Origin: Calditrichota bacterium
Lineage (GTDB): Bacteria > Electryoneota > Electryoneia > Electryoneales > Electryoneaceae
Assembly (NCBI GenBank): GCA_018263585.1
Contig: JAANWZ010000073.1
Coordinates: 1-50,357 of the forward strand
Length of the DNA: 50,357 bases
Reading direction: 5' to 3'
In this document: piece by piece, positions 3,511 to 20,916 of the stretch
Numbering within the stretch: position 1 is the first letter of the stretch
Layout of the letters: the number at the start of each line of letters is the position of its first letter
Program-made: the position numbers and the translations under genes
Notes under the pieces: generated by a model
Seen by the model: the letters and a program-made list of their open reading frames with translations, nothing else
Database searches by the model: none
Told to the model about the DNA's origin: nothing

Positions 3511-4414
3511 CGGATTCCCTCTCCGCCCAGTCGATCAGCCACCTCCAGCGGGCGTCAACTTCCGCCGCGAACCGTTCGACCTCGCCGTCGTCGAGGTGGC
3601 TGAACCGTCCCTGCAGGCGGACGTATTCACGCACAGGCGTCGGCTCGCCGGCGTCGAACACGGTGAGCGCCTTTCCCCCGGCGACCTCGACGAGCGGGAA
3701 CACGCGGCTGGTCACCGCCTTGCGCGCAACGCGGACCGTATTCTGCTCCTCGAACCGCTGTCCCGGCGGGCACGGGGTAAACACGTGCAGGAACCGGAAC
3801 CCGCGCGTGTCCCGCGCGCGCTCGAGCTTCGCGAGGTAGTCGTCCGGGAACGCCGGCGTCGCGCTCGCGAAATACGGAATCCGGTGCGCGGTCATGATCG
3901 CGAGCATGTCCTTCTTCGGTGTCGGCTTCGGGTTCGCGCGCGGCGTGGTTGTCGTCCACGCCCCCGCCGGCGTCGCACCGCTCTGCTGGATCCCCGTGTT
4001 CATGTACGCTTCGTTGTCGTAGCAGACGTAGAGCACGTTGTCGTTGCGGTCGGCGGCGGCTGAGACGGCGCCGAACCCGATGTCGAACGTGGCGCCGTCG
4101 CCGGCCCACGCGACGACGGTCGTGTCGTGCTTTCCGCGCGCGTCGAGCCCGGCGCGCACGCCCGCCGCCGCGGAAGCCGCCGCCTCGAACGCGATGTGAA
4201 GCAGCGGCGCCTGCAGCGACGAGAGCGGGAACGGCCCGTCGATCACAGCCATGCAGCCGGCGGGGATCACGAACACGCAGTTCGGGCCGAGCACGCGCGC
4301 CGCCATCTGCATCGCGAGCACGCCGCCGCAGCCGCGGCACGCGAGATGCCCGCCCGTCGGCCCCGAGCCGTCGCAGGCGAGCCGCGTCACGGTCTCCTGT
4401 CTCGGTTCTCTCAT
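3503..4414 (-). CDS. 2-oxoacid:acceptor oxidoreductase, beta (TPP-binding) subunit
   Basis: A 303-aa PorB-type subunit carrying thiamine diphosphate and one [4Fe-4S] cluster. Visible features are Cys26 and Cys29 in LACRGCGG, Cys54 in IPAGC and Cys215 in FTPCPPG, which together give the four cluster ligands of the PorB group. The TPP motif is GDGATFDIG (from residue 105) with YDNEAYMNTG at 132-141. The ATG at 4414 is preferred; an in-frame upstream extension of 34 residues has no family similarity. It pairs with gamma (overlap) and, across a 460-bp repeat region, with alpha. The overall pattern is closest to pyruvate/2-oxoisovalerate-type enzymes, but phenylglyoxylate dehydrogenases belong to the same family and would fit the context. 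Confidence 0.88.
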   Translation of the reverse strand: MREPRQETVTRLACDGSGPTGGHLACRGCGGVLAMQMAARVLGPNCVFVIPAGCMAVIDGPFPLSSLQAPLLHIAFEAAASAAAGVRAGLDARGKHDTTVVAWAGDGATFDIGFGAVSAAADRNDNVLYVCYDNEAYMNTGIQQSGATPAGAWTTTTPRANPKPTPKKDMLAIMTAHRIPYFASATPAFPDDYLAKLERARDTRGFRFLHVFTPCPPGQRFEEQNTVRVARKAVTSRVFPLVEVAGGKALTVFDAGEPTPVREYVRLQGRFSHLDDGEVERFAAEVDARWRWLIDWAERESDE

Positions 4415-4875
4415 ACGATCAGACGCCTGCTGAAACGCACCACATCCATCAGAAAAACGCTGCGTGACCCTTGACCCAGCCCGATTCGCTGCCGCGCATC
4501 GGCCGAACGACGTCATTCTGAACGCGGCTTCGCGCGTCTGTCTGCGTGAAGGCGCGTGAAGAAGGTCCAGCTTATCCGAGGATTATTTCTTGACTTCAGG
4601 GACGCTTGCTCGCAAGCGTCCCCCTCCTCTGTCACCTTTGTCGAACTCGGACCTTCTTCCCTTCGCCCGACAAACGGCCGTCGGGCTTCGGTCAGAATGA
4701 CACGCTTGCCACCCGCGATATTGCCACCCCCAATATTGCTCCCGGCTGGGCCGGAGGGATGGCCGGATGCCGACAAGCGTCCCCCGCTTGAGCATCCGCG
4801 CGGGCAAGCCCGCACGGCCGGCACAGCAGCACTCCGGGGACGCTTGCTCGCAAGCGTCCCCCTGATCGGCCCTCT
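4415..4875. repeat. Repeat-filled gap between alpha and beta subunit genes
   Basis: No gene seen. A composite palindromic element spans 4512-4701 (GTCATTCTGAAC left end, TCAGAATGAC right end) with an internal hairpin at 4599-4622. A second hairpin with arms GGGGACGCTTG/CAAGCGTCCCC is at 4836-4861. A GCGGGCAAGCCCGC palindrome lies near 4800. These repeats separate subunits of what is normally one operon and may have inserted into it. Confidence 0.8.
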
Positions 4876-6036
4876 CTATTCCCGCACCTCCACCCAGTTG
4901 ATCCGGTCGGGCTCGGCGGTGTTTTCGAGCAGCGCGTGGAAGATGCCGGCCGCGGTCTCCGGCAGTATTTCGCGCCCGCCGAGTCCGGCGACGAACCCGC
5001 ACACCGGCGCGTGCCCGTCCAGCGCCGCCTTCGCCTCGCCTGCGACGGGGCCGCCATGACCGAACGAGACCGCTCGATCGACGACCGCGAGCGGCGCGCC
5101 CGCCGGGATGATCTCCCGCAGCGGCCGTGCCGGGAACGGCCGGTACTGCCACATTCTCACCGCTCCGGCGCGCACGCCGCGCCCACGCAGCTCATCCACC
5201 GCCGCGCAGAACGAACCGTACGCCGTGCCGAGGCAGAGCGCGACAATCTCCGCGTCTTCGACACGATACTCGTGCAGCGGTTTCAGCTCGCGGCCGGTGA
5301 GTTCATGCCACGCCGCCGCGTGTTCAACAATCATCCCGCCCGCTGTTTCCATCGCGCGCTGGATCTTGTACCGCTGCTCCATGAACGAATCGGGGAACAT
5401 CATCCCGCCGAACGCATGCGGGTCGTCCGGGTCGAGCGAGATCTCCGCCTCCCGCCGCGGGAGGAACTCGTCGATCAACGGTTGCGGCGGCAGTTCGACG
5501 CCCTCGACGCAATGCGAGAGCACGAACGCGTCGAGCACGACCATCGCGGGCAGCAACGCCTGCTCGGCGACTTTGAACGCGAGCAGCGTGCTGTCGAACA
5601 CCTCCTGGTTCGAGCCGGCGTAGAACTGCATCCACCCGGTGTCGCGCTGCGCCATCGAGTCGGACTGGTCGGTGAGGATCGTCCACGGCGCGGCGAGCGA
5701 CCGGTTCACTTCTCCGAGCACGACCGGCGTGCGCGCCCCGGTCGCCCAGTGCAGCATCTCGTGCATCAGCGCGAGCCCCTGGCTCGAGGTCGCGGTGAAC
5801 GCGCGAGCGCCGGTCATCGACGCCCCGATGCACGCCGACATCGACGAATGCTCCGACTCCGTCTGGATGAAGCGCGCGTTCATCAGCCCGTCCGCGCAGA
5901 ACCCGGCGATCTCCTCGACGACCGACGTCTGCGGCGTGATCGGATACGCCGCGATCACCTCCGTGCGCGCGAGCCGGACAGCGTGCGCGAGCGCCTGGTT
6001 GCCGGTGATCGCGACCCGTTCACTCGCGGCGTTCAT
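4876..6036 (-). CDS. 2-oxoacid:acceptor oxidoreductase, alpha subunit
   Basis: A 386-aa PorA-type alpha subunit. The pyrimidine-binding domain starts with YPITPQTSVVEEI (residues 31-43), followed by the family hallmarks ESEHSSMSA, TATSSQGLALMHE and RDTGWMQFY. The C-terminal half is the transketolase-C-like domain with SFGHGGPVAGE. Length agrees with archaeal and clostridial PorA/VorA (~390 aa). It overlaps the end of the upstream flavoprotein gene by 17 bp (6020-6036), so the flavoprotein is very likely part of the same complex. The complex would convert a 2-oxoacid and CoA into acyl-CoA and CO2. In an aromatic cluster phenylglyoxylate (giving benzoyl-CoA) is attractive, but that is inference. 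Confidence 0.9.
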   Translation of the reverse strand: MNAASERVAITGNQALAHAVRLARTEVIAAYPITPQTSVVEEIAGFCADGLMNARFIQTESEHSSMSACIGASMTGARAFTATSSQGLALMHEMLHWATGARTPVVLGEVNRSLAAPWTILTDQSDSMAQRDTGWMQFYAGSNQEVFDSTLLAFKVAEQALLPAMVVLDAFVLSHCVEGVELPPQPLIDEFLPRREAEISLDPDDPHAFGGMMFPDSFMEQRYKIQRAMETAGGMIVEHAAAWHELTGRELKPLHEYRVEDAEIVALCLGTAYGSFCAAVDELRGRGVRAGAVRMWQYRPFPARPLREIIPAGAPLAVVDRAVSFGHGGPVAGEAKAALDGHAPVCGFVAGLGGREILPETAAGIFHALLENTAEPDRINWVEVRE

Positions 6037-7843
6037 GCACGAACTCCATTATGATCGCGCAGCGCGGGCATTCCTCGACACAGATCCCGCAGCCCTTGCA
6101 GATCGAATCCATCACAAGGTAACCGCCCGTTTCCGGGTCGCGCCGGATCGCGCCCTCCGGACAGAAGATCTGGCACAGCCCGCAGCGCGTGCACTTGCCG
6201 CACGAGAAGCAGCGGCCTGCTTCGTGGCTCGCGCGGGCGCGCGACCAGCCGAGCTCGATTTCATCGAACCCGGACGGCTTTCCCCCGCGCGCGAGCCGGT
6301 CGAGTTCATCGCGTTCGACGTGCGGGAAATAGTCCGGGTTGAGCTCGTCGTATTCGATCACGCGGACGGCGTCCGTGAGCAGGTCAAGCTCTCCGCCGCT
6401 CAGGTAGCCGGTCAGCGACGCCGGCCCTCCGCCGACGCGGAACCGGTCGAGCGCGCGGCTGTCCGCGCCGCGCAGCGTGCTGTCGATCGCCATCGCCGCG
6501 CGTTTTCCGCTCCCGATCGCGTGCGCGACGGTCCGTTCGGCGCCGGCGAAATCGCCGCCCGCGAACAGGCGTGCGCGCGCCGACTCCCCCCAAGCGCCGG
6601 CGTCCGCGAGCACATCACGCAGCTCGCGGTCCGCGGTGAGCGCGCCCGGGTCGGTCTGTTCCCCGATCGCATTGATCACCGTCGCCGCCGGGAGCGTGAA
6701 ATCGCTGCCGGGGATCGGCGCCGGGCGGGCCCGGCCGGAGGCGTCCCGCTCGCCCGGTTTCGTGCGCAGGCAGGTGAGCGCGCTCACCCGGCCGTTTTCC
6801 ACGGTGAGCGCGTGCGGCACCGCCTGTTCGACGATCTGGACGCCTTCGGCGATCGCCTCCTCGATCTCGTCCGCGTACGCGGGCATGTCGGCGCGCGTGC
6901 GGCGGTAGAGGATCATCACATCCGCCCCGAGCCGCCGCGCGCTGCGGGCGGCGTCGATCGCGCTGTTGCCGCCGCCGATCACGAGACAGCGCTCGCCGAC
7001 TTCGACCTGATCGCCGGCCGCGAGCGCGCGCAGGAATTCGAGCGCGTTCACCTGGCCCGCGCCGGATCCGCCGTCGAGATTCAGCGACCGGCTCGTGCTC
7101 GCACCCGAGGCGACGAACACGGCGTCGTAGATCCGGAGCAGCTCACCGATCTCATCGATCGTTCCCTTGCGTTCGCCGGTGAAGAAGCGGACGCCGAGCG
7201 CGCGCAGGCGGCCGATCTCACGGTCGAGCACGTCGTTCGGCAGGCGATACGACGGAATCCCGTATCGCAACAGACCGCCGGGCCTCCGGTTGCGCTCGAA
7301 CAGCTCGACCGTGTGGCCGAGCAGCGCGAGCGCCCACGCGCAGCTCATCCCCGCCGGCCCGCCGCCGACCACCGCGACACGTTTCCCGCTCTTCTCGCGC
7401 GCCGGCCGCCACACGTCCGCATTGTCGAGCAGCGGCAAGTCGCCGAGATACCGCTCGATCGCGCGGATGCTCACCGATTTATCAAACTGCACGCGGTTGC
7501 AGCCGGCTTCGCACGGGTGGTAGCAGACCCGGCCGCACGTCGCCGGAAACGGGTTCTCGGCGGCGAGCAGGCGCGCGGCGGACTCCTCGTCACCGTCCCG
7601 CAGCAGGCGGATGTAGCCCTCGACGTCATTGCCGACCGGGCAGTGTGTGAGGCACGGCGAGAGCCCGCGCTGGTACACCGGCCGCTTCTCCTTCCACACG
7701 CCCGTCGGCAGGTGCGCCGTGCTCGCCCAGCTCACCGCCATCGGCGGCAACTCGCGCGCGGAGAGCTGCTCCGGCGGCTTCTCGCTGCCCCCGCGCACAT
7801 GCCGCAACGCGGCGTCGCTGAATATGTCAGGGTGGATGGGCAT
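6020..7843 (-). CDS. GltD-like FAD/NAD(P) oxidoreductase fused to a PorD-like 2[4Fe-4S] ferredoxin
   Basis: A 607-aa fusion protein. Residues ~60-130 hold the N-terminal cysteine motifs of glutamate-synthase small-subunit proteins (CLTHCP; CGRVCYHPCEAGC). GGGPAG at 160-165 binds FAD, and a second Rossmann motif VIGGGNSAID near 285 binds NAD(P)H. Residues ~545-600 form a two-cluster ferredoxin (CGKCTRCGLCQIFCP and CKGCGICVEECP) like the delta subunit of 2-oxoacid:ferredoxin oxidoreductases. Overlap with alpha suggests it links the decarboxylase to NAD(P). This resembles the FAD subunit plus ferredoxin subunit of phenylglyoxylate:NAD oxidoreductase, here as one chain. It could alternatively move electrons from NAD(P)H to ferredoxin. 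Confidence 0.85.
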   Translation of the reverse strand: MPIHPDIFSDAALRHVRGGSEKPPEQLSARELPPMAVSWASTAHLPTGVWKEKRPVYQRGLSPCLTHCPVGNDVEGYIRLLRDGDEESAARLLAAENPFPATCGRVCYHPCEAGCNRVQFDKSVSIRAIERYLGDLPLLDNADVWRPAREKSGKRVAVVGGGPAGMSCAWALALLGHTVELFERNRRPGGLLRYGIPSYRLPNDVLDREIGRLRALGVRFFTGERKGTIDEIGELLRIYDAVFVASGASTSRSLNLDGGSGAGQVNALEFLRALAAGDQVEVGERCLVIGGGNSAIDAARSARRLGADVMILYRRTRADMPAYADEIEEAIAEGVQIVEQAVPHALTVENGRVSALTCLRTKPGERDASGRARPAPIPGSDFTLPAATVINAIGEQTDPGALTADRELRDVLADAGAWGESARARLFAGGDFAGAERTVAHAIGSGKRAAMAIDSTLRGADSRALDRFRVGGGPASLTGYLSGGELDLLTDAVRVIEYDELNPDYFPHVERDELDRLARGGKPSGFDEIELGWSRARASHEAGRCFSCGKCTRCGLCQIFCPEGAIRRDPETGGYLVMDSICKGCGICVEECPRCAIIMEFVHERRE

Positions 7844-9456: not shown

Positions 9457-10485
9457 TCACGGCACCGCGATCGAGCGCAGCGAACCCGGATCCGACTCGC
9501 GCATCAGGTCGAACCCGCGGTTGATCTCGTCGAGACCGAAGCGCGCGGTGACCAGCTCGCTGACCGAGATCTTGCCGATCCGCGCGAGCTCGATGATGCG
9601 CGGGTAATCGACCGGCCGGCAGCCGAGCGATCCGATCACCTCCTGCTCGAAGAACATGATCTTCGCCGCGGGCAACTCGACCGGCTTGTTCGTGTAGCCG
9701 ATCACGACCGTGCGCCCGCCTTTGCGGATGCAGGAGAACGCCTGCTGGATCGTCGCCGGATTGCCGATCGCCTCGAAGCTGACATCGGCGCCGCCGCCGG
9801 TCAGCTTCTTCACCGCCTTGTCGATCCGTTCGACTTCCTTCGCGTTGATCGTCTCGGTCGCGCCCAGCTTTTTCGCCGCTTCCAGCTTCTCGGGGATGAC
9901 ATCGACGGCGATCACGGACGCGCCGACCGCGGCGGCGACCTGGACGGCGTTGATCCCGACCCCGCCGCAGCCGAACACGACGACGTTCATCCCCGCCTTC
10001 ACTTCACCACGGTTGACGACCGCGTGGAACGGCGTGCTGATCGCGTCCGCGATGATGCTGCTCTCTGCGAGCGGGAGTTCATCGGGGAGCGCGAGCGCGT
10101 CCTTCGCCGGCGCGAGCACGTACTCGGCGTACGCGCCGTCCACGTGGTTGCCGAACATCACCATGTTGTCGCAGATGTTCTCGCGGCCGCGGCGGCAGTT
10201 GTCGCACTCGCCGCACGTGAGCACCGCGGGCAGGAGCACGCGGTCGCCCTCCTTCCATGCCTTCACACCCTGGCCGAGCGCGGCGACGGTTCCGGACGGT
10301 TCATGGCCGAGGATCATCGGCGGCTCCTTGAACGTGGGCACGCCGTGGTCGATGTAATGCATGTCGGTGTGGCAGATCCCGCACGCGGCGACCTTGACCA
10401 GGATCTCGCCGGCCCCGGGCTCCGGCGTCGGCAGATCACGCAGCTCGAGCGGCTTGTTCGCCCCGAGAAAGACAGCGGCTCTCAT
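9457..10485 (-). CDS. had: 6-hydroxycyclohex-1-ene-1-carbonyl-CoA dehydrogenase (Had / BzdX-like)
   Basis: A 342-aa zinc-dependent medium-chain dehydrogenase that oxidises the hydroxyl made by the dienoyl-CoA hydratase, the second step after ring reduction. Catalytic zinc ligands Cys35 and His61-Glu62 are present, and the structural zinc is held by Cys91, 94, 97 and 105 (CGECDNC...C). The NAD-binding motif is FGCGGVGINAV. The late segment MFFEQEVIGSLGCRPVDY looks like the benzoyl-CoA-pathway branch. The ATG at 10485 is chosen over a TTG one codon earlier. It sits 3 bp downstream of a 78-aa gene and in one run with the GNAT, redox and ferredoxin genes. General alcohol dehydrogenase activity is the alternative, but Dch and Oah in the same island make Had most likely. 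Confidence 0.88.
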   Translation of the reverse strand: MRAAVFLGANKPLELRDLPTPEPGAGEILVKVAACGICHTDMHYIDHGVPTFKEPPMILGHEPSGTVAALGQGVKAWKEGDRVLLPAVLTCGECDNCRRGRENICDNMVMFGNHVDGAYAEYVLAPAKDALALPDELPLAESSIIADAISTPFHAVVNRGEVKAGMNVVVFGCGGVGINAVQVAAAVGASVIAVDVIPEKLEAAKKLGATETINAKEVERIDKAVKKLTGGGADVSFEAIGNPATIQQAFSCIRKGGRTVVIGYTNKPVELPAAKIMFFEQEVIGSLGCRPVDYPRIIELARIGKISVSELVTARFGLDEINRGFDLMRESDPGSLRSIAVP

Positions 10486-10488
10486 CAA

Positions 10489-10725
10489 TCACCCCCCGTT
10501 GTTGCTCGTTCCGGCGTCCAGCGGCCGGACGTAGATCGTACGTTCGAACTGACTGATGCAACTCCGGCAGCTCTCGTCCGGCGCGTCCTCCGGCGGCTCG
10601 GCGGGTTCGAGCCGGACCTCGTAGCCGAGCTCCGCGTACAGTTGCACCGCCTCCTTGAGCCGCGCGCCGAACGCGTTGAACTTTTTCTCCCAGCCCTCGC
10701 GGGTGAGGTCGTCGCGCGCGCTCAC
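10489..10725 (-). CDS. Small CxxC protein of unknown function
   Basis: A 78-aa acidic protein starting at GTG (10725), with a Gly-rich upstream sequence. I do not recognise the family. It has an amphipathic N-terminal half (EKKFNAFGARLKEAVQLYAE) that could form a helix pair, then a Pro/Glu-rich linker and a CRSC motif near residue 54 that could bind a metal or Fe-S atom or form a disulfide. It is squeezed between the GNAT gene (3-bp gap) and had, so co-expression is very likely. The Azoarcus bzd operon also has small uncharacterised genes at a comparable place; orthology is untested. Confidence 0.65.
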   Translation of the reverse strand: MSARDDLTREGWEKKFNAFGARLKEAVQLYAELGYEVRLEPAEPPEDAPDESCRSCISQFERTIYVRPLDAGTSNNGG

Positions 10726-11204: not shown

Positions 11205-13727
11205 CTAGAACAAATCATCCAGCTCATCATCCCCGCCGCCGGGCAGCTCGCCGTGGCGCTGGATGTGCTGCTGGATTATCTCGCTCTCGCGCTTCGTGTA
11301 CATCGGGTCGAGCACCCACTTCAGCTTGTGCCCGGTTTCCGCGCCATGGTCCTCGAGCCATTCATCGATCAGCCAGCGGATCGACGCGGTCCCGCTGATC
11401 TTCTCCGGCTTGCCGGTGACGTCTGCGAGCACGCACACGCCTGGTTCATCGGGGGCGGATTCGAGGATGCCGGGCTCAAGCGGCACCCACTCCTCCGGCG
11501 GCAGCACCGGCGAGCCGATCCGGTGGCGGATATTGCAGCGCAGGCAGCGGTTCGCCTCCGCGGTCGCCTGCACCGGGTCCATCGTAAGCCGCACGAGCTC
11601 GAAATCCTCCATCCGCTGCTTCGGATCCCGTTTCGGTGTCGGTTGCCGCGGCTCGAGCGTGATCGAGGCACCGTCGAACCCGTTCCCGTCGGCGGCGGCG
11701 AACTCGAAGCGCCCGTCCCCGCCGAGGAAGCGGTCGATCCCGGCGGCGGCGCGCTTGCCGGAGGCGATCGCCTCGACGACCGAGGACGGCCCGTGCACGA
11801 GATCGCCCGCACCGAAAAACCCCGGCAGCCACGTTTCCACCGACTCCGCGTCCGGCGAGAGCAGCCCGCGGTTCTTCAACACATCGCCCGCCTCCGGGCC
11901 GAACACGGTCGTATCGGTCTCGAGCCCGACCGCGAGGATCACCCAATCGGCTTCGCGGGTGATGCGCGCGTCCACCGCGATCTGCGGGTCGAACCGGCCC
12001 TGCTCGTCGAACACGCGGTTGCAGCGCGCGAACACCACTTCGCCGACACGGCCGTCCTCGCCGCGAAACTCGTGCGGGCCCCAGCCGTGGGTGAACGAAA
12101 CTCCCTCCGCGAGCGCCTCCGCGACCTCCTCCGGGTGCGCGGGCAGTTCGTGCTCCTGCTCGAGCGATACGACCTCGACCGACTCAACGCCGGAGCGGAG
12201 CGCGGTCATCGCGGTGTCCATCGCGACCCCTCCGCCGCCGATCACGACCACGCGTCCGTTCGTTTTCACCGGACGGTCGGATCGCGCCGCGCGCAGGTAG
12301 TCCACGCCCCAGAGTACGCCGTCGAGCTCCGCGCCGGGCACGTCGATCTGCTTGCTCAACGGCGTGCCCATCGCGAGCAGGACGGCGTCGTAGCCGAACT
12401 CGCGGAGCGTGCGCGGGTCGAGGTCGCGTCCGAGCCGGCGGCCGCCGTGAAACTCGATCCCGAGCCGGTCGAGGAACTCGAGATCACGCGCGAGCTCCAT
12501 CTCCGGGAGCCGGAACCGCGGCAACACCTGGCGGAGGAACCCGCCGGGCTTGTCGGCGGCGTCGAACAACGTCACCTTGTGCCCTTTCAGCGCGAGCAGC
12601 CAGGCGGCGGACAACCCGGCCGGCCCGGCGCCGACGATCGCGACACGGCGGCCGCTGTCGAGCATGCCCTCGATCGCCGGGTACGGTTCCTCCGTGTCGA
12701 ACGCGAACCGCTTCAGGTCGCAGATCGCGACCGGGTCGTCGAGCCGACCCCGCCGGCAATGGTCCTCGCACGGGTGGAAGCAGACGTAGCCGAGCGTCGC
12801 GGGCAGCGGCACGCTCTCCGCGATCGCGCGGCGCGCGCCGGGCAGGTCGCCCTCCGCGATCCTGCGCACGTAGAGCGGGATGTCGATCCCCGCGGGGCAG
12901 GCGTGGATGCACGGCAACGGCTGGCCGCCGGCCGGGGTCTCCACGCCCTCCCGGTCACGGAGCGCGCCGGTCGGGCAGATCTCGACACACGCGCCGCAGA
13001 ACCGGCACTCCGCTTCCGGCAGATCGCCCGGCTTCTTCGTACCGACGATGAACTGGTCGCCGTGCATCACCGCGCCGAGCACGTCCGCCTTGACCACGTC
13101 CCGGCACACGCGCACGCACTTGAGGCAGCCGATGCAGAGCTCGTAGTCGCGCACGAACAGCGGGTCGGTGAGGATCGTTTTCTGATCCGGGCCGGAATAG
13201 GTCGGGAGGTCATCCGCGTAACCGACGAAATCCGACACCTTCCCGATCTCGCAGTGGCCGAGCAGCACGCAGCAGCGGTCCTTCACCGGCACGTTCATCG
13301 AACACTCGGTTCGGCTGCAGCCCTCGCGCTGTTCGCAGAGCAGGCACGCGTGCGGGTGGTCGGCGAGGATGCCGTTGAGCGCGACCTGGCGGGCGCGGAC
13401 GAGATCCTCGCCGGTGGTTGTGATCCGCATCCCCTCGCCGACCGGGATCCGGCACGCCGGCCGCGGCAGATCATCCCCCTCGACCAGCACCTTGCACAGG
13501 CCGCATCCCTTCTTCTCCGCTTCCCGGACCGTGAGCCCGGCGCGCTCGCCGCGGAACTCGCTGTCGCCCTGATAGACGACCTCGTCGAGCACGACGTCGG
13601 TCAGTGAACCGACAGCGTGATGCGCGCACAGGTGCGGAACGTAGATGTCCGCCGCAAGCGCGGCCTCGAGGATCGTCACGCCCGGTTTCGTTTCAACCGG
13701 CTTGCCGTCGATCTCGATCGTGATCAT
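11205..13727 (-). CDS. NuoG-like 2Fe-2S/4Fe-4S module fused to GltD-like flavoprotein (BzdV-like electron donor)
   Basis: An 840-aa redox fusion starting at ATG 13727 behind a GAGGAA site. Order: an N-terminal [2Fe-2S] domain (~1-105) with a ~35-residue insert between its first Cys and the GCGLC motif; a NuoG-type His/Cys3 segment (HACLLCEQ...GC...C); two [4Fe-4S] motifs (CIGCLKCVRVC and CRFCGACVEICP); then a GltD-like half with FAD motif GAGPAG and NAD(P) motif GGGGVAMD. The last ~85 residues (DPMYTKRESEIIQQ) resemble a degenerate GIY-YIG-like module. Encoded directly after the ferredoxin gene, it probably passes electrons between NAD(P)H and ferredoxin for benzoyl-CoA reduction. Direction, and any electron bifurcation, are unproven. 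Confidence 0.85.
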   Translation of the reverse strand: MITIEIDGKPVETKPGVTILEAALAADIYVPHLCAHHAVGSLTDVVLDEVVYQGDSEFRGERAGLTVREAEKKGCGLCKVLVEGDDLPRPACRIPVGEGMRITTTGEDLVRARQVALNGILADHPHACLLCEQREGCSRTECSMNVPVKDRCCVLLGHCEIGKVSDFVGYADDLPTYSGPDQKTILTDPLFVRDYELCIGCLKCVRVCRDVVKADVLGAVMHGDQFIVGTKKPGDLPEAECRFCGACVEICPTGALRDREGVETPAGGQPLPCIHACPAGIDIPLYVRRIAEGDLPGARRAIAESVPLPATLGYVCFHPCEDHCRRGRLDDPVAICDLKRFAFDTEEPYPAIEGMLDSGRRVAIVGAGPAGLSAAWLLALKGHKVTLFDAADKPGGFLRQVLPRFRLPEMELARDLEFLDRLGIEFHGGRRLGRDLDPRTLREFGYDAVLLAMGTPLSKQIDVPGAELDGVLWGVDYLRAARSDRPVKTNGRVVVIGGGGVAMDTAMTALRSGVESVEVVSLEQEHELPAHPEEVAEALAEGVSFTHGWGPHEFRGEDGRVGEVVFARCNRVFDEQGRFDPQIAVDARITREADWVILAVGLETDTTVFGPEAGDVLKNRGLLSPDAESVETWLPGFFGAGDLVHGPSSVVEAIASGKRAAAGIDRFLGGDGRFEFAAADGNGFDGASITLEPRQPTPKRDPKQRMEDFELVRLTMDPVQATAEANRCLRCNIRHRIGSPVLPPEEWVPLEPGILESAPDEPGVCVLADVTGKPEKISGTASIRWLIDEWLEDHGAETGHKLKWVLDPMYTKRESEIIQQHIQRHGELPGGGDDELDDLF

Positions 13728-13737
13728 CGCCCGTTCC

Positions 13738-14019
13738 TCACCAGGAGTGTTCGATCGCGCCCGGGGTGCAGGCGGCGACGCACGGCAGCGGCGGCCGCTC
13801 ATCCACCGGCTTGCACGGCGCGCAGTCGTACTTGATCGACTTCCGGTGCTCTTCCCTTATTTCCGCGACAAGATCGTCCCAGTCATCCTCGATGATACGG
13901 AACATCCCATGCGGGCAGGCTTCCACGCACGGATGCTCGGCGCATTCGACACACTTGTCAGTGTCGATCGTGATGAAATACTCGCCGGAGCCGTCCATGT
14001 AGCCGTAGTTTGCTTTCAT
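13738..14019 (-). CDS. Di-cluster ferredoxin (BzdM-like)
   Basis: A 93-aa ferredoxin, likely the electron carrier to the benzoyl-CoA reductase. The ATG at 14019 has a TGAGGA ribosome site. The first cluster motif is CVECAEHPCVEACP (from about residue 23). The second is split as CAPC, then eleven residues including a Pro-rich loop, then CVAACTP near the C-terminus, an unusual spacing. It is followed after 10 bp by the large redox fusion. Azoarcus has a ferredoxin gene right after bzdNOPQ; here it also follows bzdQ, but across a 765-bp repeat region, so it probably has its own promoter. A TATGAT-like hexamer is at 14060-14065, without a good -35 partner. Confidence 0.85.
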   Translation of the reverse strand: MKANYGYMDGSGEYFITIDTDKCVECAEHPCVEACPHGMFRIIEDDWDDLVAEIREEHRKSIKYDCAPCKPVDERPPLPCVAACTPGAIEHSW

Positions 14020-14784: not shown

Positions 14785-15678
14785 TCAGGTTGAGACGCTT
14801 GTCTTCTTCTTCCGCGCCTTGCCTTTTTCCACGAGCGCCTTCGCGAACAGGGCTGCGCCGAGCGCGCCGGCGATCTGCGTGTCGTGTTTCGGCTTGAGCG
14901 CGGTCAGTCCGAGCTCCTCCTCGAGCCGGTTGACGACGCCGACGTTCTTCGCGATCCCGCCGGTGATCGCGAAGTCCGGCTGCACGCCGACCCGTTCGAG
15001 CAGGGTGAACACGCGGTGCGCCATTGCGGAGCAATAGGCGGCGAGTACCTTCGACTGCGGCCAGCCGTCACGGAGCAGCCCGGCCGCCTCCGATTTCGCG
15101 AACACGACACACGTCGAGGACACCGGCGGCGGCTCCTTTTCCACCTGCAGCGAGCGATCGCCGACCTCCTCGATCGGGATCCCGAGCAGGTCGGCGAACA
15201 CCTCCATCCCACGGCCGGTGCCGGCGGCGCACTTGTCGTTCATCAGGAAGTTGGTCACCTTACCGCGCTCGTCACACAGGATCGCCTTGCAGTCCTGGCC
15301 GCCCATGTCGAGTATCGTGCGCACGGTCGGGCCGTACATGTAGTTGCCGCCGCGCGCGTGGCACGCGATCTCGGTGATCGCCTTGTCCGCGAACGGCACG
15401 TTCACCCGGCCGTACCCGGTGCCGACGATGAAATCGAAGTCATCGATCGTCATCCCCGTGTTCTCGAGCGCCCAGTTCATCGCGTTGAGCGCGCTGTTCG
15501 GGCTGTCCGAGCCGGTGCGCATGTTGGAGAACGCGAACAGCTCGCCGTCGGCCATCACCACCGCCTGCGAACTGACCGAGCCGACATCGACTCCGCCGGT
15601 GATCATCGACGCGCTCCGCCAGTCACGTTCCTCATCCTGCCAGTTGTATTCCTTCCAGCGCCAGTACTCCTTGGCCAT
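14785..15678 (-). CDS. bzdQ: Benzoyl-CoA reductase ATPase subunit (BzdQ/BcrD-like)
   Basis: A 297-aa ASKHA-fold ATPase and Fe-S subunit of class I benzoyl-CoA reductase. The ATG at 15678 (MAKEYWRWKEYN) excludes 15 upstream residues. Near the N-terminus is the phosphate-1 motif GGVDVGSVSSQAVV; then GYGRVNVPFADKAITEIACH, DMGGQDCKAI, the cluster ligand NDKCAAGTGRG and a second cysteine in STCVVFAKSE. It probably dimerises with the neighbouring BzdP-like protein around a shared [4Fe-4S] cluster and couples ATP hydrolysis to electron transfer. Two short ATPase subunits (297 and 269 aa) match the Azoarcus bzd type rather than the Thauera bcr type, where one is ~440 aa. Confidence 0.9.
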   Translation of the reverse strand: MAKEYWRWKEYNWQDEERDWRSASMITGGVDVGSVSSQAVVMADGELFAFSNMRTGSDSPNSALNAMNWALENTGMTIDDFDFIVGTGYGRVNVPFADKAITEIACHARGGNYMYGPTVRTILDMGGQDCKAILCDERGKVTNFLMNDKCAAGTGRGMEVFADLLGIPIEEVGDRSLQVEKEPPPVSSTCVVFAKSEAAGLLRDGWPQSKVLAAYCSAMAHRVFTLLERVGVQPDFAITGGIAKNVGVVNRLEEELGLTALKPKHDTQIAGALGAALFAKALVEKGKARKKKTSVST

Positions 15679-15727
15679 TGTGTGCTCCTCGTTGCTGGTG
15701 TGAATGACTGCCTGTCCGCCCACCGTG

Positions 15728-16537
15728 TCATCCTGGACCGGAAGCGCCGGTCTCTGTCGCCGCGACCACCGCGCGCTCGGCGGCGACCAGCGCGGCGCCG
15801 TAGGCGGCGATCATCTCCGGCGCGTCCGGGATCCGCACCTCGTCCTGCATCGCCGTGTTCAGCGAATGGATGAAGCCGACATTGCGCGCCATCCCGCCGA
15901 CGAGCACGACCGGCTTGTTCAGCCCGACACGCCGTGTCATCGACACGATCCGGCTCGCGATCGCGTCGTGGATCGCCTTCGCGATGTCCTGCTTCGGGGT
16001 GCGCGCGTGCAGCAGGCTGATCACCTCGCTCTCGGCGAACACGGCGCACTGCGCGTTCATCGGCACGGACGCGTCCGATTTCAGCGAGATCCTGCCGAGT
16101 TCATCGACGGAGACCTCGAGCGCGCGGGCCATCGCCTCGGTGAACGCGCCGGAGCCGGCCGCGCACTTCTCGTTGATCGCGAAGTCCTCGACTTTTCCCC
16201 GTTCGCCGGAACGTATCGCGCGGCCTTCCTCCGCGCCGACGTCGATCACCGTCTTCGTGTCGGGATACAACTCGAAACAGGCGCGCGCGGCGGCGGTCAC
16301 CTCCGTGATCTTGTCGCCGGCGTACTGCACCGCCTTACGGCCCGCGCCCGTAGAACAGATTCCGGTCACCTCGTCACGGTCGATCCCGAACTCGGCGAGC
16401 GTCGCGGCGAGCAGCTCGTTTGTCACCGTTTCCTGGTCGAACCCGCTCTCCCGGCTTTTCTTTCCCACGATCTCCCCGTCCCGGAGAACGAGCAGTTTCG
16501 CGTTCTTCGCGCCAACGTCCACGCCAATCGTGATCAT
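15728..16537 (-). CDS. bzdP: Benzoyl-CoA reductase ATPase subunit (BzdP/BcrA-like)
   Basis: A 269-aa ASKHA ATPase subunit. I take the second ATG of a tandem pair (16537), four bases after GAGGTG; the pair at 16540/16549 is possible. Motifs: GVDVGAKNAKLLVL at the N-terminus, GAGRKAV, DVGAEEGRAI, the cluster ligand NEKCAAGSG and a second Cys in NAQCAVFAESE, then the adenosine-side GGMARNVG. It sits between the beta-like subunit (8 bp upstream) and bzdQ, giving the order N-O-P-Q seen in Azoarcus. 2-hydroxyacyl-CoA dehydratase activators are relatives, but two ATPase genes together with both large subunits point to benzoyl-CoA reductase. Confidence 0.9.
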   Translation of the reverse strand: MITIGVDVGAKNAKLLVLRDGEIVGKKSRESGFDQETVTNELLAATLAEFGIDRDEVTGICSTGAGRKAVQYAGDKITEVTAAARACFELYPDTKTVIDVGAEEGRAIRSGERGKVEDFAINEKCAAGSGAFTEAMARALEVSVDELGRISLKSDASVPMNAQCAVFAESEVISLLHARTPKQDIAKAIHDAIASRIVSMTRRVGLNKPVVLVGGMARNVGFIHSLNTAMQDEVRIPDAPEMIAAYGAALVAAERAVVAATETGASGPG

Positions 16538-16545
16538 CATCCACC

Positions 16546-17856
16546 TCAAGCCGTTTCAAGCGGTTGCAGGCCGAGCGTCTCCATGAACGATTCGATCCGG
16601 GTCGTCGTCCGGCCCATGTCGAATTCGCGCTCGTCACCCATGTTGCCTTCGAACGTCATCACCGGCAGGCCCGTATCCACGAGCCCGTTCCGGTTCTGCA
16701 TGATTCCGCACGAGAGCCCCTCGCAGCCACGGTTCAGGTGCAGCATCACGCCGTCCACATGCCATTCCTTCGCGATCTGCGCCATCATCTTCGTCTTCAG
16801 TGTCGGGTCGTAGAAGTGCTGCCACTCGGGCCGCGACAGCGTCCACTCGCTGAGTACCTCGAGCGCTTTGTCGCGGGAATCGATTTCGACGCCGAGCTCC
16901 ATCGGGGTCGTGCGCGCGCCCCACGAGCCGTCCGGTTTCGTCTCCCAGTTACCGATCAGCCCGAACGTGTACAGCGAGCCGATCGAGAGCGCGCCGTACG
17001 TCTCGAGGTAACGGAACAGCTTGAGGAAGCCCCACGGCGGCTGCGTGTCGCTCATCAGCCGGCAGCGCTCGTCCGGGATCGCGGCGATGCCCTGCTCGAT
17101 ACGCTCGCGCACCTCGTCGTAGAGCTCGTCGTAGAAGTCGGCGAACTCCTTCTTCGCCTTCGACAGCGTGCCGAACACGTACAGCGAGTACATCGTTTTC
17201 TCTTCCAGCGGCGCGGGCACATGCTTGTTCAGCTCGCAGATCTTCGCCCACGTCGAGGTCGAGCGGCAGTCGTTCTTCACCGCTTCGATCAGCTTCTCGT
17301 CGTCGTACTCTCGGCCGGTCACCTGCTCCATGAATTCGATCGCTTCGTGCATCTGATCGACGATGTAACGGATCTTGTGCGGATCGTCTCTCACCTCCTC
17401 GTAGGGACCGACGCTGACATCGATGCTGAAGTAGGGGAAATCCTCGTGCTCGGACACGACCTGGTACCATTTCGCGTGGCTGCAGCAGATGTGGTCCTGA
17501 AAGCCGAAATTCGGTTTCGGATAGGGGCCGCCGAACAGGAACCTGTTCAGGTACATCGATCCCCAGTAGTTGCGCATGTAGCTGCACAGGTCGCGCGCCC
17601 AGCCCTTCGCTTCCGTCGCCTCGAGGCATTCGAGCGAGAATTCGCGGTTGAACGCGATCGAGGCGGCGTACGGTTCGCCGGTGAGCGGATAGACGTCGTC
17701 GCCGAGCCCGTACGGGATCGCGTCGAACGACCACGCGCCGCCGGTCCAGCGGATCCCGCCGCGCTCGTGCGCGGACGCGTAGTCGCGGTAGTACTGCTCG
17801 CGCAGCTCCTTCGCCTTCTTCCAGCATTTCAACGGTGCGGTTTTATGAACAGCCAT
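16546..17856 (-). CDS. bzdO: Benzoyl-CoA reductase large subunit (BzdO/BcrB-like)
   Basis: A 436-aa HgdB-fold subunit that, with BzdN, forms the substrate-binding half of the reductase and holds Fe-S clusters. The ATG at 17856 has AGGAG seven bases upstream. The N-terminal segment [20 protein letters not shown] is typical of the BcrB/BzdO branch; cluster-type cysteines occur in [20 protein letters not shown] and CRST. Azoarcus BzdO is of similar length (~450 aa). Downstream the bzdP-like gene follows after 8 bp. Upstream a 115-bp spacer to bzdN contains a tandem hairpin repeat. Confidence 0.92.
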
Positions 17857-17971: not shown

Positions 17972-19096
17972 TCAAAACAGATCCTCCTCCATCAGCATCT
18001 CGAGGAACGCCTCCGTGCGGATCCGGAACTGGCCCATCGGCACGGTCACGTCGAACTCGAGGAACAGGGTCGGGAACCCGTTCTCCTCCAGGTAGCTGCG
18101 CAGCGGGACCATGTCGGCCTCGTGCGGGTCGCAGAACTTCTGCTGGATGAGGATCACGCCGGCGACGTCGAAGTCCCGCGCGAGCTTGAGGATGTGCGGG
18201 AAACGCGTGCGCGCGACATGGTCCTTCGCCGGGCAGGCGGGGCGCTCCACGTACCGCTTCGCGATCGCCTCGATCCGGTCGTCCAGCTCAGGCGTTTCGT
18301 TCCAGAAGTAGCGGGTGCCGGTGCAGTGGTCGTCGGTGACCACCGTCGCGCCGACCGCCTCGACCATGCGGATGAAGTCGGTGTCATCGTTCTCCGACCC
18401 GACGAGCATCAGCCGGGTGCCGTCGCCGAACTGCTCCTCGCGCTCGTCGAGCTGCGCGAGCACCTTTCGCAACTCCGCCGTGTGCTCCTCCTTGTCCACC
18501 CACATCGAGCTGACGGTGACCCACATCGCCTCGAGGCCGGACAGCTTCGGGACCGGTCCTTTCCGGTGCGCGTAGAGCTCGTGCAGCGCGGCGCGGTTCT
18601 CGTTCACGAGCCGGATTCCGCGGTCGAGGTCGTCGTCGCTGAGCGGCTTGCCGGTGAACTGCTCCACCGCGGCGCGGAACTTTTTCAGCTCCTCGTAGAG
18701 GTAGGGGACGGCGTGCGGGGAGGCGACGTGCATCGGGTGCGGGAGGTAGTAGGTGAAGTCGTGCGGGACATTCTCCTCCCAACTCCGGTACGTCTGGCGC
18801 AGGTGGATGCACGACTGCGCGATCGTGATCCCGTCGAGGTACTCGTACCGTCCCTTCAGCCCCTGCGCGAGCACGTCCCGGCAGAACGGGCAGAACATCC
18901 CGAACAGGTGCTGCTCGGTTACGTCCTGCGGCTCGTGGTTGCCGAGCACGCGCACCGGGAGGATGTCCGCCGCGACCAGGATCTCCTCCGGCACGTAACT
19001 GCAGAAGCAGCCGAACACCTTGCCGCCCGTTCGTTCCTTCCACCGGCGCGCGTAGTCGTGACGGTCACGGTACCAGGTTTCGAACTGTGAGAACAT
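17972..19096 (-). CDS. bzdN: Benzoyl-CoA reductase large subunit (BzdN/BcrC-like)
   Basis: A 374-aa HgdB-fold subunit, close to the ~380 aa of Azoarcus BzdN. The ATG at 19096 (MFSQFETWYRD) is chosen; 70 upstream in-frame residues are repeat translation. Cluster-type cysteines are in VFGCFCSYVPEEIL, FGMFCPFCRDVL, QSCIHLRQ and IQQKFCDPHE. This is the first gene of the N-O-P-Q run. About 50-100 bp upstream is an AT-rich stretch (19140-19195) with two direct GTCTAT copies 13 bp apart that could belong to its promoter. Related 2-hydroxyacyl-CoA dehydratase subunits exist, but the full four-gene set and the pathway context make benzoyl-CoA reductase the best call. Confidence 0.92.
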   Translation of the reverse strand: MFSQFETWYRDRHDYARRWKERTGGKVFGCFCSYVPEEILVAADILPVRVLGNHEPQDVTEQHLFGMFCPFCRDVLAQGLKGRYEYLDGITIAQSCIHLRQTYRSWEENVPHDFTYYLPHPMHVASPHAVPYLYEELKKFRAAVEQFTGKPLSDDDLDRGIRLVNENRAALHELYAHRKGPVPKLSGLEAMWVTVSSMWVDKEEHTAELRKVLAQLDEREEQFGDGTRLMLVGSENDDTDFIRMVEAVGATVVTDDHCTGTRYFWNETPELDDRIEAIAKRYVERPACPAKDHVARTRFPHILKLARDFDVAGVILIQQKFCDPHEADMVPLRSYLEENGFPTLFLEFDVTVPMGQFRIRTEAFLEMLMEEDLF

Positions 19097-19585
19097 GGTT
19101 CCCTCGCGTCTCGCGGCCGTCTCCCCCCGGCGACGGGCCTGTCTATAGTGTTTGTCTATTATGAATATGTACGCACGAAAAATCTGTATTGTGTCGCGCT
19201 CTCCGCGCCCGGCAAGCACGTCATTCTGAACGAAGCCCGTTGTCAGTTTGTCGGGCGCAGTGAAGTTTATCCTGAAAGTAGTGAAGGGAAGGTCCAGGTA
19301 GAACAAGGGTCACGTTTGCAAGCCGCTCCGTTTTCGAACCCGGACCTTCTTCACCCGCGGGCGGCACACAGACGCCGGCCGCGGCTTCAGAATGACGCGC
19401 TCCCGTCCCCCTTTCAGAACTCGGCACGGGTCGTTCCCTGCAAGCGGCTTCAGAATGACGCGCTCCCGTCCCCCTTTCAGAACTCGGAACGGGTCGTTCC
19501 CTGCAAGTTGTTCACTACTCAGCGAACGCGCCTGCACTGTGAGCGCGTACGCGCTTGTTCAGGATGACACATTTGCGCCGCCCGC
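19097..19585. repeat. Region upstream of bzdN: AT-rich promoter-like stretch, palindromic element, 63-bp tandem repeat
   Basis: No gene seen. 19140-19195 is AT-rich for this genome and carries two GTCTAT direct repeats, a candidate regulatory region for bzdN. 19220-19396 is a composite element (GTCATTCTGAAC to TCAGAATGAC). A 63-bp unit starting GCGGCTTCAGAATGAC is then present twice in tandem (19381-19443, 19444-19506) with very few differences. A GTTCAGGATGACAC end lies at ~19557-19570. Confidence 0.75.
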
Positions 19586-20356
19586 CTACCTGTGCCTCCA
19601 CTCCGGCTTCCGCTTTTCGAGGAACGCGTTCAGGCCCTCGTTCGCGTCCGCGGTCGCCATCAACTCCTCCATGTACAGCTTGTCCGCGATCGCCATCCCT
19701 TCGCGCGCGTCCTTCGCGTACGCGGCGTCGATCGCCTTCTTGCCGACCGCGATCACGGCTGCGCTCTGTTTCGCGAACTGCGCGCAGTACTCGTCCACAT
19801 CCTCAGCGAACGAGTCCGGCGCGAACACGCGGTTGACGAGTCCGGCGGCGTGCGCGTCCGCGGCGGAATAGATTTTCCCGGTGAGCAGCCACTCGATCGT
19901 GCGGTTGCGCCCGATCAGTTGCGGGAACACGGCGACCGCCATCGGGGGAAACACACCGACCGAGATCTCCGGCTGGCCGAGCTTCGCGGATTCGGATGCG
20001 AGCACGATGTCGCAGCCGACGGCGAGTTCGCAGCCGCCGCCGAGCGCGAGCCCGTGCACCGCCGCGACCGTCACCGACGGGATGTCCCAGAGCGCCTGGA
20101 ACAGCCGGTCGAACGTGTTGATCATCTCCACCGCCTTCTCGCCGGTGTGTTCGCCGACATCGACTCCGGATGAAAACGCCTTGCCCGCCGCCGCGATCAC
20201 GACCACGCGCAGCTGACTGTCGAGCGCGAGATCGCGGAAACAGTCCACGAGCTCGTTCATCATCTCGATGTTGAGGATGTTGAACGGTTCGCGTTCGAGC
20301 GTGACCGTCGCGCGCCCCTCGCCGCTCGCGACATGGATGTGCCGGTACTCCTTCAT
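19586..20356 (-). CDS. dch: Cyclohexa-1,5-diene-1-carbonyl-CoA hydratase (Dch / BzdW-like)
   Basis: A 256-aa enoyl-CoA hydratase-fold protein, proposed to add water to the cyclic dienoyl-CoA made by benzoyl-CoA reductase. The ATG at 20356 overlaps the upstream gene by 4 bp. Oxyanion-hole segments are AAGKAFSSGVDVGEH (57-71) and ALGGGCELAVGCD (104-116) with Glu110. The segment GQPEISVGVFPPMAVAVFPQ, with no second canonical acid after GVFPP, is typical of the Dch branch as I recall it. The C-terminal trimer helix is complete. Generic crotonase activity is the alternative; the company of bzdNOPQ, had and oah supports Dch. Confidence 0.85.
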   Translation of the reverse strand: MKEYRHIHVASGEGRATVTLEREPFNILNIEMMNELVDCFRDLALDSQLRVVVIAAAGKAFSSGVDVGEHTGEKAVEMINTFDRLFQALWDIPSVTVAAVHGLALGGGCELAVGCDIVLASESAKLGQPEISVGVFPPMAVAVFPQLIGRNRTIEWLLTGKIYSAADAHAAGLVNRVFAPDSFAEDVDEYCAQFAKQSAAVIAVGKKAIDAAYAKDAREGMAIADKLYMEELMATADANEGLNAFLEKRKPEWRHR

Positions 20357-20916
20357 CGGTCCCCCCTTTCCTCCCGCTCGCCGGAGTTTTCGACCTCTTG
20401 CTGATCGACGCTGAACGGCAGGCACGAGTCCTTGAGGAACTCGCGCGCGCGTTCGATGAACTCGGCGTCGGTCATCCGCCGCTCGCGCCACTCCTTCTCG
20501 TCGCCGGTTGCGAAGCCCATCAGTACGTTGGACGACATCCGCACCGCTTCGACGGTCAGTTCGTAGAGGTGCGTGCACCCCTTCGCGCCGGCGAGCAACG
20601 GGCGCATCCTCTTCGTGATCCCGCGCTCGATGCGCAGCCCGATCACGCGCTTGATGTGCTGCGCGGTGAGCGCGCAGATCCCGAACGGGACCTTCACCAT
20701 CTGGCAGCGCGCGTCCACGATCTCCCGGTCGGGGACACTGATCACGAGATCGACGCGCATGTTGTGGTTCAGGTCGAGCAGCGACGATTTCGTCTTGATC
20801 GTGTCGGACGCGAGCTGTGTGACCGCGACGTTGATGTTGCGTTCGTAGATCGCGTCGTAGTCGAGCTTCGCGGACTCGGAACGTTGCTCGAGTTTCTCAA
20901 GCCCCTTGATCGGCAC
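20353..20916 (-). CDS. DUF2889-like protein
   Basis: A 187-aa protein that I place, from memory of the family pattern, in the DUF2889 group. Its landmarks are VDLVISVPDREIVDARCQMVK in the middle, then GLRIERGITKR and GAKGCTHLYELTVEAVR (~108-124). No signal peptide or membrane segment is seen. It overlaps dch by 4 bp (ATGA), so the two are translationally coupled. Members of this family occur beside CoA-linked aromatic and steroid degradation genes, but no biochemical role is known to me. The conserved His-Cys pair (GCTHL) could be a ligand or catalytic site. Confidence 0.72.
   Translation of the reverse strand: MPIKGLEKLEQRSESAKLDYDAIYERNINVAVTQLASDTIKTKSSLLDLNHNMRVDLVISVPDREIVDARCQMVKVPFGICALTAQHIKRVIGLRIERGITKRMRPLLAGAKGCTHLYELTVEAVRMSSNVLMGFATGDEKEWRERRMTDAEFIERAREFLKDSCLPFSVDQQEVENSGEREERGDR

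Follow-up and report, generated by a model that had tools for sequence, protein, structure and literature searches.

Is the bzdM–bzdV gene pair of a Calditrichota bacterium an NADH-linked electron source for benzoyl-CoA reductase?

How does an ATP-dependent class I benzoyl-CoA reductase (BCR) obtain its low-potential electrons? The question is raised by a 50,357-nucleotide stretch of DNA from a Calditrichota bacterium (assembly GCA_018263585.1, contig JAANWZ010000073.1; hereafter the window), in which genes for a ferredoxin and for an 840-amino-acid fusion of a NuoG-type iron-sulfur part with a GltD-type flavoprotein part follow those of the reductase. The two genes are the known bzdM–bzdV pair of class I BCR operons; the pair as such is thus not new, and what we add are three predicted properties of BzdV, namely an NADH-type site, a missing bifurcating core, and a catalytically dead GIY-YIG tail. 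The reading that we favor, with a confidence only slightly better than even, is that BzdV acts as a stand-alone, non-bifurcating NADH:ferredoxin (BzdM) oxidoreductase feeding the BCR. Domains, conserved ligands, gene linkage, the motif switch, the absence of a partner and the tail fold were computed; cofactor content, direction, NADH use, electron route and a docking role of the tail are deduced from them.

The bzdM–bzdV pair and its linkage to the reductase genes

The pair and the pathway genes around it are as follows.

11205..13727, minus strand: bzdV-type NuoG–GltD fusion, 840 amino acids from the likely ATG (Pfam, phylum homologs, Foldseek)
13738..14019, minus strand: bzdM-type 2[4Fe-4S] ferredoxin, 93 amino acids (open reading frame, conserved neighborhood)
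14785..15723, minus strand: bzdQ, BCR (TIGR03192, 438 bits, over the NCBIfam equivalog cut-off)
15728..16549, minus strand: bzdP-like activase subunit of BCR (TIGR00241 activase domain model over cut-off, cluster position, conserved)
16546..17856, minus strand: bzdO, BCR (TIGR03191, 695 bits, over the equivalog cut-off)
17972..19306, minus strand: bzdN, BCR, the real start probably lying within the reading frame (TIGR03190, 500 bits, over the equivalog cut-off)
19586..20578, minus strand: Dch-like dienoyl-CoA hydratase, a crotonase (TIGR03189, 154 bits, below cut-off)
23543..24709, minus strand: Oah (TIGR03200, 553 bits, over cut-off)
9457..10488, minus strand: Had-like 6-hydroxycyclohexene-carbonyl-CoA dehydrogenase (TIGR03201, 262 bits, below the cut-off of 339)

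Since the BzdN, BzdO, BzdQ and Oah products exceed their cut-offs, BzdP matches the activase model, and Had- and Dch-like proteins give matches below cut-off, the window is assigned a benzoyl-CoA pathway, which degrades benzoate anaerobically, and its reductase is placed in the ATP-dependent class I. Along the minus strand the gene order is bzdN, bzdO, bzdP, bzdQ, the ferredoxin gene, the 840-residue fusion gene, a GNAT gene, a 78-residue open reading frame (ORF), and genes for the Had-like protein, an acyl-CoA dehydrogenase, a GltD–PorD fusion and PorA/B/C-like proteins. bzdV lies downstream of bzdM behind a gap of 10 bp (13728-13737); the coordinates, lengths and spacing of the initial annotation were right, and the coding strand is the minus strand. 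bzdM and bzdV occupy the same position in published clusters (PMC5658619, PMC6678401, PMC5736913, PMC8163825).

The spread of BzdV was followed through 39 genomes of the phylum, one of them that of the window; families among these genomes are labelled f1, f2 and f3. Full-length BzdV is encoded in 15 of the 39 and BzdO likewise in 15, with both proteins present together in 14 (Fisher p 1.4e-8, to be read cautiously given the kinship among the genomes). The two exceptions look like contig-edge cases: G007 has BzdV and a 32-residue BzdO end at a contig edge, and G001 has BzdO together with a BzdV-type tail on a separate contig. Five BzdVs from outside the phylum (L030-L034) bring the compared set to 20. 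Genes for BzdN-O-P-Q-M-V stand in a row in L031 (Hermodarchaeota), L032 (Deltaproteobacteria), L033 (Latescibacterota) and L034 (Planctomycetota); the L030 contig (Desulfobacteraceae; 3.3 kb, 4.8x coverage) holds BzdV only. In the phylum, as in L031-L034, the genes for BzdM and BzdV are adjacent or close together, and the Hermodarchaeota BzdV aligns over residues 1-840 with the same Cys set and the same tail. The position of the pair downstream of bzdNOPQ and the co-occurrence with BzdO support the earlier proposal of a dedicated donor, and BzdM–BzdV is likely the electron donor of the BCR. In a plasmid search for the Azoarcus BzdV, 371 records matched, of which a single one reached a query coverage of 80% or more; it is annotated with an [FeFe] hydrogenase rather than a BCR cluster. 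When viral contigs were scanned with the BzdV alignment, none of the 138 pattern matches was a relative.

The ferredoxin is indeed the odd-spaced di-cluster protein that it had been called, because the patterns CX2CX4CX3C and CX2C-x(9-13)-CX3C occur in the window ferredoxin and in all 14 phylum homologs tested. Since the BzdMs of L031-L033 have an ordinary CX2CX2CX3C first cluster (that of L034 is wider), the wide spacing appears to be mainly a trait of the phylum that would have arisen within or near it.

Cofactor sites, predicted nucleotide preference and tail of BzdV

Pfam recognizes Fer2_4, Fer4 dicluster, Fer4_20, Fer4_Nqo3 and Pyr_redox_2 in BzdV, and the protein can be divided into the following parts.

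13440..13727, minus strand: residues 1-96, [2Fe-2S] domain, Cys34 and Cys75 being separated by a loop of about 40 residues (Fer2_4, alignments)
13248..13358, minus strand: residues 124-160, His-Cys3 site plus the extra Cys137/142/152/153/159 (invariant columns)
12960..13145, minus strand: residues 195-256, two-[4Fe-4S] ferredoxin-like domain (Fer4 dicluster, invariant Cys)
11523..12914, minus strand: residues 272-735, GltD/NfnB-like FAD and NAD domain, with C728/C731 after the domain (Pfam, PDB alignment)
12159..12167, minus strand: residues 521-523, Ser-Leu-Glu at the NADP-binding YRR position (alignments)
11208..11510, minus strand: residues 740-840, GIY-YIG-fold domain (distant DUF7508) and acidic tail DDELDDLF (model, Foldseek)

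Ligand conservation was judged on a 15-row alignment of BzdV homologs from the same phylum. The [2Fe-2S] cysteines C34/C75/C78/C92 are invariant or nearly so (C34 in at least 90%), and the His-Cys3 set (H124, C128, C131), the eight ferredoxin-type cysteines (C198/201/204/208 and C241/244/247/251) and the GltD-cluster cysteines (C273/277/316/320/324 and C728/C731) are all invariant. The FAD glycines G366/G368/G371 and the NAD-site residues G497-G499 are likewise invariant. As judged from this alignment, the conservation of the site residues is far above chance. The set of cofactor sites first described ([2Fe-2S], His-Cys3, two [4Fe-4S], FAD and NAD(P)) is present and conserved, but it was undercounted: the GltD half has a two-cluster set of its own, and C137, C142, C152, C153 and C159, situated in or after the His-Cys3 loop, are invariant in 15 of 15 rows. 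This extra set, complete in 19 of the 20 BzdVs, possibly binds one additional [4Fe-4S] cluster, and the load might then reach up to six [4Fe-4S] clusters and one [2Fe-2S] cluster. The exception is L030, in which an in-frame TGA (433-435) occupies the place of the invariant Cys137 in an otherwise open BzdV frame. This codon is a candidate for selenocysteine or a sequencing error; the selenocysteine reading found no support upon folding, the downstream hairpin being no better than shuffles (z -0.62). The Cys34-Cys75 loop is absent from five short NuoG–GltD fusions (L035-L038, L042).

When the NfnB ligand list (PMC7596348) is mapped onto BzdV, C273 and C324 fall to the distal and C277, C316 and C320 to the proximal cluster, with Lys339 replacing NfnB Glu117; the remaining distal ligand pair would be contributed from the C-terminal side by C728 and C731. 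Lys339 corresponds to StnC K170, and Arg406 to StnC R239 and NfnB R201 (alignment and PMC10482914); both residues are invariant in 15 of 15 rows.

Which pyridine nucleotide would such an enzyme use? In NfnB, a Tyr-Arg-Arg triplet binds the extra phosphate of NADP. The tested DsrL-2 enzyme, which has YRR, uses NADP(H) only, and according to their kinetics two tested DsrL-1 enzymes, from a group with S/T-L-E-like triplets, use or prefer NAD(H) (PMC7596348). The BzdV triplet is [CS]LE in 20 of 20 proteins (15/15 in the phylum, 5/5 outside), YRR occurring in none. YRR is found in all 20 homologs of the GltD fusion that belongs to the 2-oxoacid oxidoreductase (POR) genes of the window (POR-GltD), seven of which lie on the same contig as BzdV, and also in the five short NuoG–GltD fusions. 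Because [CS]LE replaces YRR throughout, the motif suggests that BzdV uses NADH and not NADPH, and that its published label as an NADPH enzyme is probably wrong. We thus regard it as rather improbable that BzdV is an NADPH:ferredoxin oxidoreductase, as that label says (given for the Azoarcus protein in PMC5658619 and PMC6678401), even though NADPH is the stronger reductant in cells (PMC7596348) and the homologous StnABC subunit uses NADPH; besides the missing YRR, the label is printed as putative, and the available text of the Azoarcus papers cites no supporting assay.

A tree of GltD cores (59 rows) places the BzdVs within a branch of most CLE-type proteins (33 rows, support 100/100) and POR-GltD, with one further protein, in a separate branch (100/99). 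In this tree the GltD cores of the BzdVs do not form one clade: L030 groups with L039, L031 has no settled position, and two changes have to be assumed.

The short NuoG–GltD fusions lack a counterpart of residues 740-840. Modelled alone from five rows, this tail gave a mean pLDDT of 79.8 and a pTM of 0.70, and Foldseek matched the model to GIY-YIG domains, namely those of UvrC (1yd6, 1ycz; E about 1.5e-3, Z 8-9) and that of a glutaredoxin from a plant (2lwf; E 3e-4, Z 9.8). With Foldseek E values of 3e-4 to 2e-3, VIA Z scores of 8-10 and identities of 14-21%, these matches rank above unrelated rows. The Pfam model DUF7508 exceeds its cut-off in four of eight tails tested, that of the window staying below it (19.7 of 26 bits). 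At the place of the YIG tyrosine, which we take from the GIY-x10/11-YIG spacing to be residue 777, all 15 phylum rows have an isoleucine, as do all five rows of a second alignment; because Ile777 replaces the catalytic tyrosine, the tail is unlikely to be a nuclease. The acidic end DDELDDLF, or a close variant, is found in the 19 rows whose end fell in the examined range, and the tail probably serves for docking to BzdM or to the reductase. A literature search, with most subscription papers beyond its reach, returned no paper that connects GIY-YIG with benzoyl-CoA and none on DUF7508; two papers mention bzdV as well as electron bifurcation.

Bifurcation, energetics and a probable second point of electron entry

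The initial annotation had likened the cofactor load of BzdV to that of electron-bifurcating enzymes while seeing no evident partner. The likeness stands in so far as BzdV is homologous to the A/C subunit of NfnABC/StnABC: its best PDB matches, by sequence and by Foldseek fold, are the NADP-site subunits 9bov_A, 8oh5_C and 9n5u_A, and its Fer2_4, Fer4 dicluster and Fer4_Nqo3 domains are the 2Fe-2S and 4Fe-4S domains of the BfuA type. It does not extend to bifurcation itself, because the FAD of the StnC-type subunit is a non-bifurcating input, bifurcation being carried out by StnAB (PMC10482914), and the BfuBC core, the defining feature of Bfu enzymes (PMC9304861), a class that takes in NfnABC/StnABC and HydABC, is missing. 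With BfuB- and BfuC-like proteins of the window's own genome as probes, BfuB/BfuC genes were found directly upstream of four of the five short NuoG–GltD fusions (L035, L036, L038, L042; the 8-kb contig of the fifth, L037, holds none), and several further GltD proteins have them as well. Beside BCR-linked BzdV they were found at none of 15 phylum loci and none of the four named loci, some of the contigs being short (e.g., G007). Because BfuBC is absent from all 19 BzdV loci that are informative, we reject, for the operon, a bifurcating partner encoded together with BzdV.

Could BzdV nevertheless be the input arm of a true bifurcating complex, with a BfuBC-like core encoded elsewhere or with another partner? 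Its BfuA-type domains and its bifurcating relatives speak for this, as does a BfuBC-like pair on contig C1 of the same genome (G000), the BfuB-like member of which has all domains. However, that pair sits inside a VorB/KorB/PorC operon, and at E<=1e-80 the BfuB-like protein is matched in all but one of the 39 genomes, independently of BzdV. Copies sharing at least 69% identity occur both in f1 genomes that have BzdV and in f1 genomes that lack it, and the C1 pair is thus not tied to BzdV. Moreover, if the site binds NADH, NAD+ could not serve as the high-potential acceptor in the usual way. Together with the empty BzdV loci, these points make a bifurcating complex improbable in our judgment. 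The NfnA part (DHODB_Fe-S_bind, PF10418) is absent from BzdV, and an NfnA partner was rejected, the genome's only PF10418 match lying on contig C45, which has no PF07992 match; likewise, the NfnB-type YRR and the Glu117 ligand are not found in BzdV, which has SLE at 521-523 and Lys339 instead. Bifurcation by BzdV is not supported, and the earlier remark on the missing partner holds, as the lone candidate elsewhere does not follow BzdV. As a separate observation, VorB/KorB/PorC 2-oxoacid oxidoreductase genes of L028 (7605-13166) precede genes of the BfuC and BfuB type; a BfuA-like gene was not identified at this locus, which possibly encodes a bifurcating 2-oxoacid enzyme.

The stand-alone NADH:BzdM oxidoreductase that we favor would work as the input arm of an NfnABC/StnABC-type bifurcating transhydrogenase, used without the bifurcating core and altered by the exchange of an NADP(H) for an NAD(H) site and by the addition of a catalytically dead GIY-YIG-fold domain with an acidic tail. 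In the GltD half, the FAD would accept a hydride from NADH; the electrons would then move one at a time by way of both GltD clusters, in one of which a Lys replaces the fourth ligand, and of the NuoG-type chain to BzdM, and reduced BzdM would deliver them to BzdNOPQ. The low potential would be reached by the ATP spent in the reductase and not by BzdV. The reductase consumes two ATP per reduction, at 45-60 kJ/mol each. When these are set against the calculated 66 kJ/mol for the step from NADH (-280 mV) to benzoyl-CoA (-622 mV; potentials as printed in PMC9304861), the net change is -24 to -54 kJ/mol. The ATP spent by the reductase thus makes the overall energetics permissive: simple electron transfer from NADH to ferredoxin is feasible with no bifurcation involved, provided that the reductase can work from a small reduced fraction of BzdM.

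Several points weigh against this reading, and the size of that fraction is its main weakness. A ferredoxin of -431 mV would, by calculation, be only about 1.3% reduced at equilibrium with NADH. At -587 mV, the value printed for a ferredoxin in PMC9973337, the reduced fraction falls to about 0.0006%. Hence, the reductase must bind rare reduced ferredoxin, or another donor helps. The genome also has Rnf genes (RnfC, RnfD and two Rnf-Nqr membrane subunits); Rnf and the POR complex may supply reduced ferredoxin without BzdV, which might then run backwards. Rnf could also raise the reduced fraction of BzdM. Concerning the nucleotide, Cys as first residue is not among the DsrL triplets listed, the YRR rule was shown in DsrL, L060 has YRR although it belongs to the CLE branch, so that the motif shifts within it, and the BzdVs of cultured benzoate degraders such as Azoarcus lie outside the 20 compared. 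The compared genomes are related, and the counts are thus not independent; AlphaFold gave a pLDDT below 50 for most of residues 125-271, so that the Fe-S half is poorly modelled and cluster geometry rests on sequence; and no assay of a BzdV-type enzyme was found in the literature. In L027 (5850-19442), a few kilobases separate the Rnf genes from a NuoE-NuoF-NuoG-NuoH set that resembles complex I; the NuoG of this set has only 343 amino acids.

The remaining genes downstream of bzdV are as follows.

10729-11196, minus strand: GNAT-family protein, downstream of bzdV
10489-10725, minus strand: 78-residue ORF with a CxxC motif, downstream of bzdV
7854-9020, minus strand: acyl-CoA dehydrogenase
6020..7843, minus strand: fusion of GltD with a PorD-like ferredoxin, YRR motif, 607 amino acids; NADP(H)-type subunit of a 2-oxoacid oxidoreductase
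4876..6036, minus strand: 2-oxoacid oxidoreductase alpha subunit (PorA-like)
3503..4516, minus strand: 2-oxoacid oxidoreductase beta subunit
2908..3510, minus strand: 2-oxoacid oxidoreductase gamma subunit, PorC (TIGR02175 over cut-off)

The second GltD-type fusion noted earlier at 6020-7843 is confirmed, and the idea of two electron entry points gains support and a sharper form: NAD(H) for BzdV versus NADP(H) for POR-GltD, whose complex would be the second, 2-oxoacid-linked entry. The window's 2-oxoacid oxidoreductase misses the PorA-, PadG- and KorA-type equivalog cut-offs. A KorAB identity for 2908-6036 was rejected, the PorA-like alpha and PorC gamma subunits being separate and not fused gamma-alpha as in KorA, with OAFO_sf below cut-off; phenylglyoxylate dehydrogenase PadEFGHI was rejected for 2908-7843 (PadG, PadI and PadE 269 vs 700, 221 vs 700 and 135 vs 300 bits). 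In f1, POR-GltD is present in all four genomes with BzdV and in none of the three without. The retrieved regions around BzdM–BzdV in f3 (G010-G013) contain no POR complex; because they hold the pair without it, BzdV is, by gene content, independent of POR-GltD.

Two alternatives lean on this complex. That it is the real donor, with BzdV as an accessory, draws on the f1 distribution and on the precedents of KorAB, which feeds the BCR in Thauera, and of the mutual exclusion of KorAB and AadN in Rhodopseudomonas (PMC9973337); we consider it highly improbable, given that f3 keeps BzdM–BzdV with no POR nearby, that the NADP motif of the GltD subunit suggests 2-oxoacid:NADP+ chemistry, and that the PorA-like alpha subunit exceeds no equivalog cut-off. 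It also seems to us quite unlikely that BzdV runs mainly in reverse, as a ferredoxin:NAD+ oxidoreductase draining surplus BzdM reduced by a 2-oxoacid oxidoreductase. This direction is downhill by standard potentials, and a POR complex is encoded close by in the window and in f1 relatives, but in f3 no such donor is at hand, and co-location with an electron-consuming reductase better fits a feeder.

A bolder extension of the feeder reading, which we think unlikely as a whole, sees BzdV as a self-contained low-potential injector: a bifurcating input arm that has swapped BfuBC for GIY-YIG/DDELDDLF docking on an ATP-driven reductase. For an NADH donor, flavin-based bifurcation would then be replaced either by ATP use in the reductase or by gating within BzdV that involves the additional Cys cluster.

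As to the other neighbors, the 78-residue CxxC ORF is found again in relatives from f1 and, following BzdV, in L032 and L033; the GNAT gene has counterparts in relatives from f1 and f2. Two PTA/PTB-family phosphotransacylase genes (window 453-2500) follow the POR genes, as they also do in G018 and G020, hinting at substrate-level phosphorylation. A 689-residue ORF (27968-30037) has no Pfam or NCBIfam match and shares 66% identity over 462 residues with a counterpart beside the same pathway in G020. An Rfam scan of the window gave no match.

Comparison with known systems

In its position beside bzdNOPQ and in its proposed role, the pair resembles BzdM/BzdV of Azoarcus CIB and of the Chloroflexi and Hermodarchaeota clusters in the published descriptions of these, and the Hermodarchaeota BzdV of L031 is of the same build as that of the window. 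It departs from the Azoarcus label, a putative NADPH enzyme, in that the window site reads as NADH; the Azoarcus protein is known here by label and not by sequence. With the A/C subunits of NfnABC/StnABC (8oh5_C of Sporomusa ovata, 9bov_A of Caldicellulosiruptor, 9n5u_A of Thermococcus sibiricus) BzdV shares the NuoG-type [2Fe-2S]/[4Fe-4S] part fused to a GltD FAD domain and the proximal Lys; it differs in that the ferredoxin part precedes GltD, and in having no BfuBC partner, an NADH-type site and an extra tail domain. AadN of Rhodopseudomonas palustris (pattern B Nfn), required for growth on benzoate and found in strains without KorAB, is likewise a GltD/Nfn-like proposed feeder of BCR (PMC9973337), but it is a fused NfnA-NfnB, whereas BzdV has no PF10418 match and a NuoG part instead. 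The DsrL-1 NADH:acceptor oxidoreductases are similar as stand-alone GltD-type Fe-S flavoproteins with a non-YRR NAD(H) site and a reductase partner (PMC7596348), and differ in their Fe-S domains and in that partner, which is DsrAB. The tail resembles the UvrC N-terminus (1yd6/1ycz) and the N-terminal domain of a plant glutaredoxin (2lwf) in fold, and is unlike GIY-YIG nucleases in having Ile777 for the YIG tyrosine at 14-21% identity.

The sequence evidence turns a vague label into sharp questions about NADH or NADPH, a second acceptor, and the tail. It also suggests that, in bacteria as well as in Asgard archaea, a module known from bifurcating enzymes operates with the bifurcating core absent, and that, of the two GltD-type enzymes encoded in the same gene island, one serves the NAD pool and the other the NADP pool. 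Next to KorAB in Thauera and AadN in Rhodopseudomonas, BzdV would then be a third solution for the low-potential electron supply of class I benzoyl-CoA reductases.

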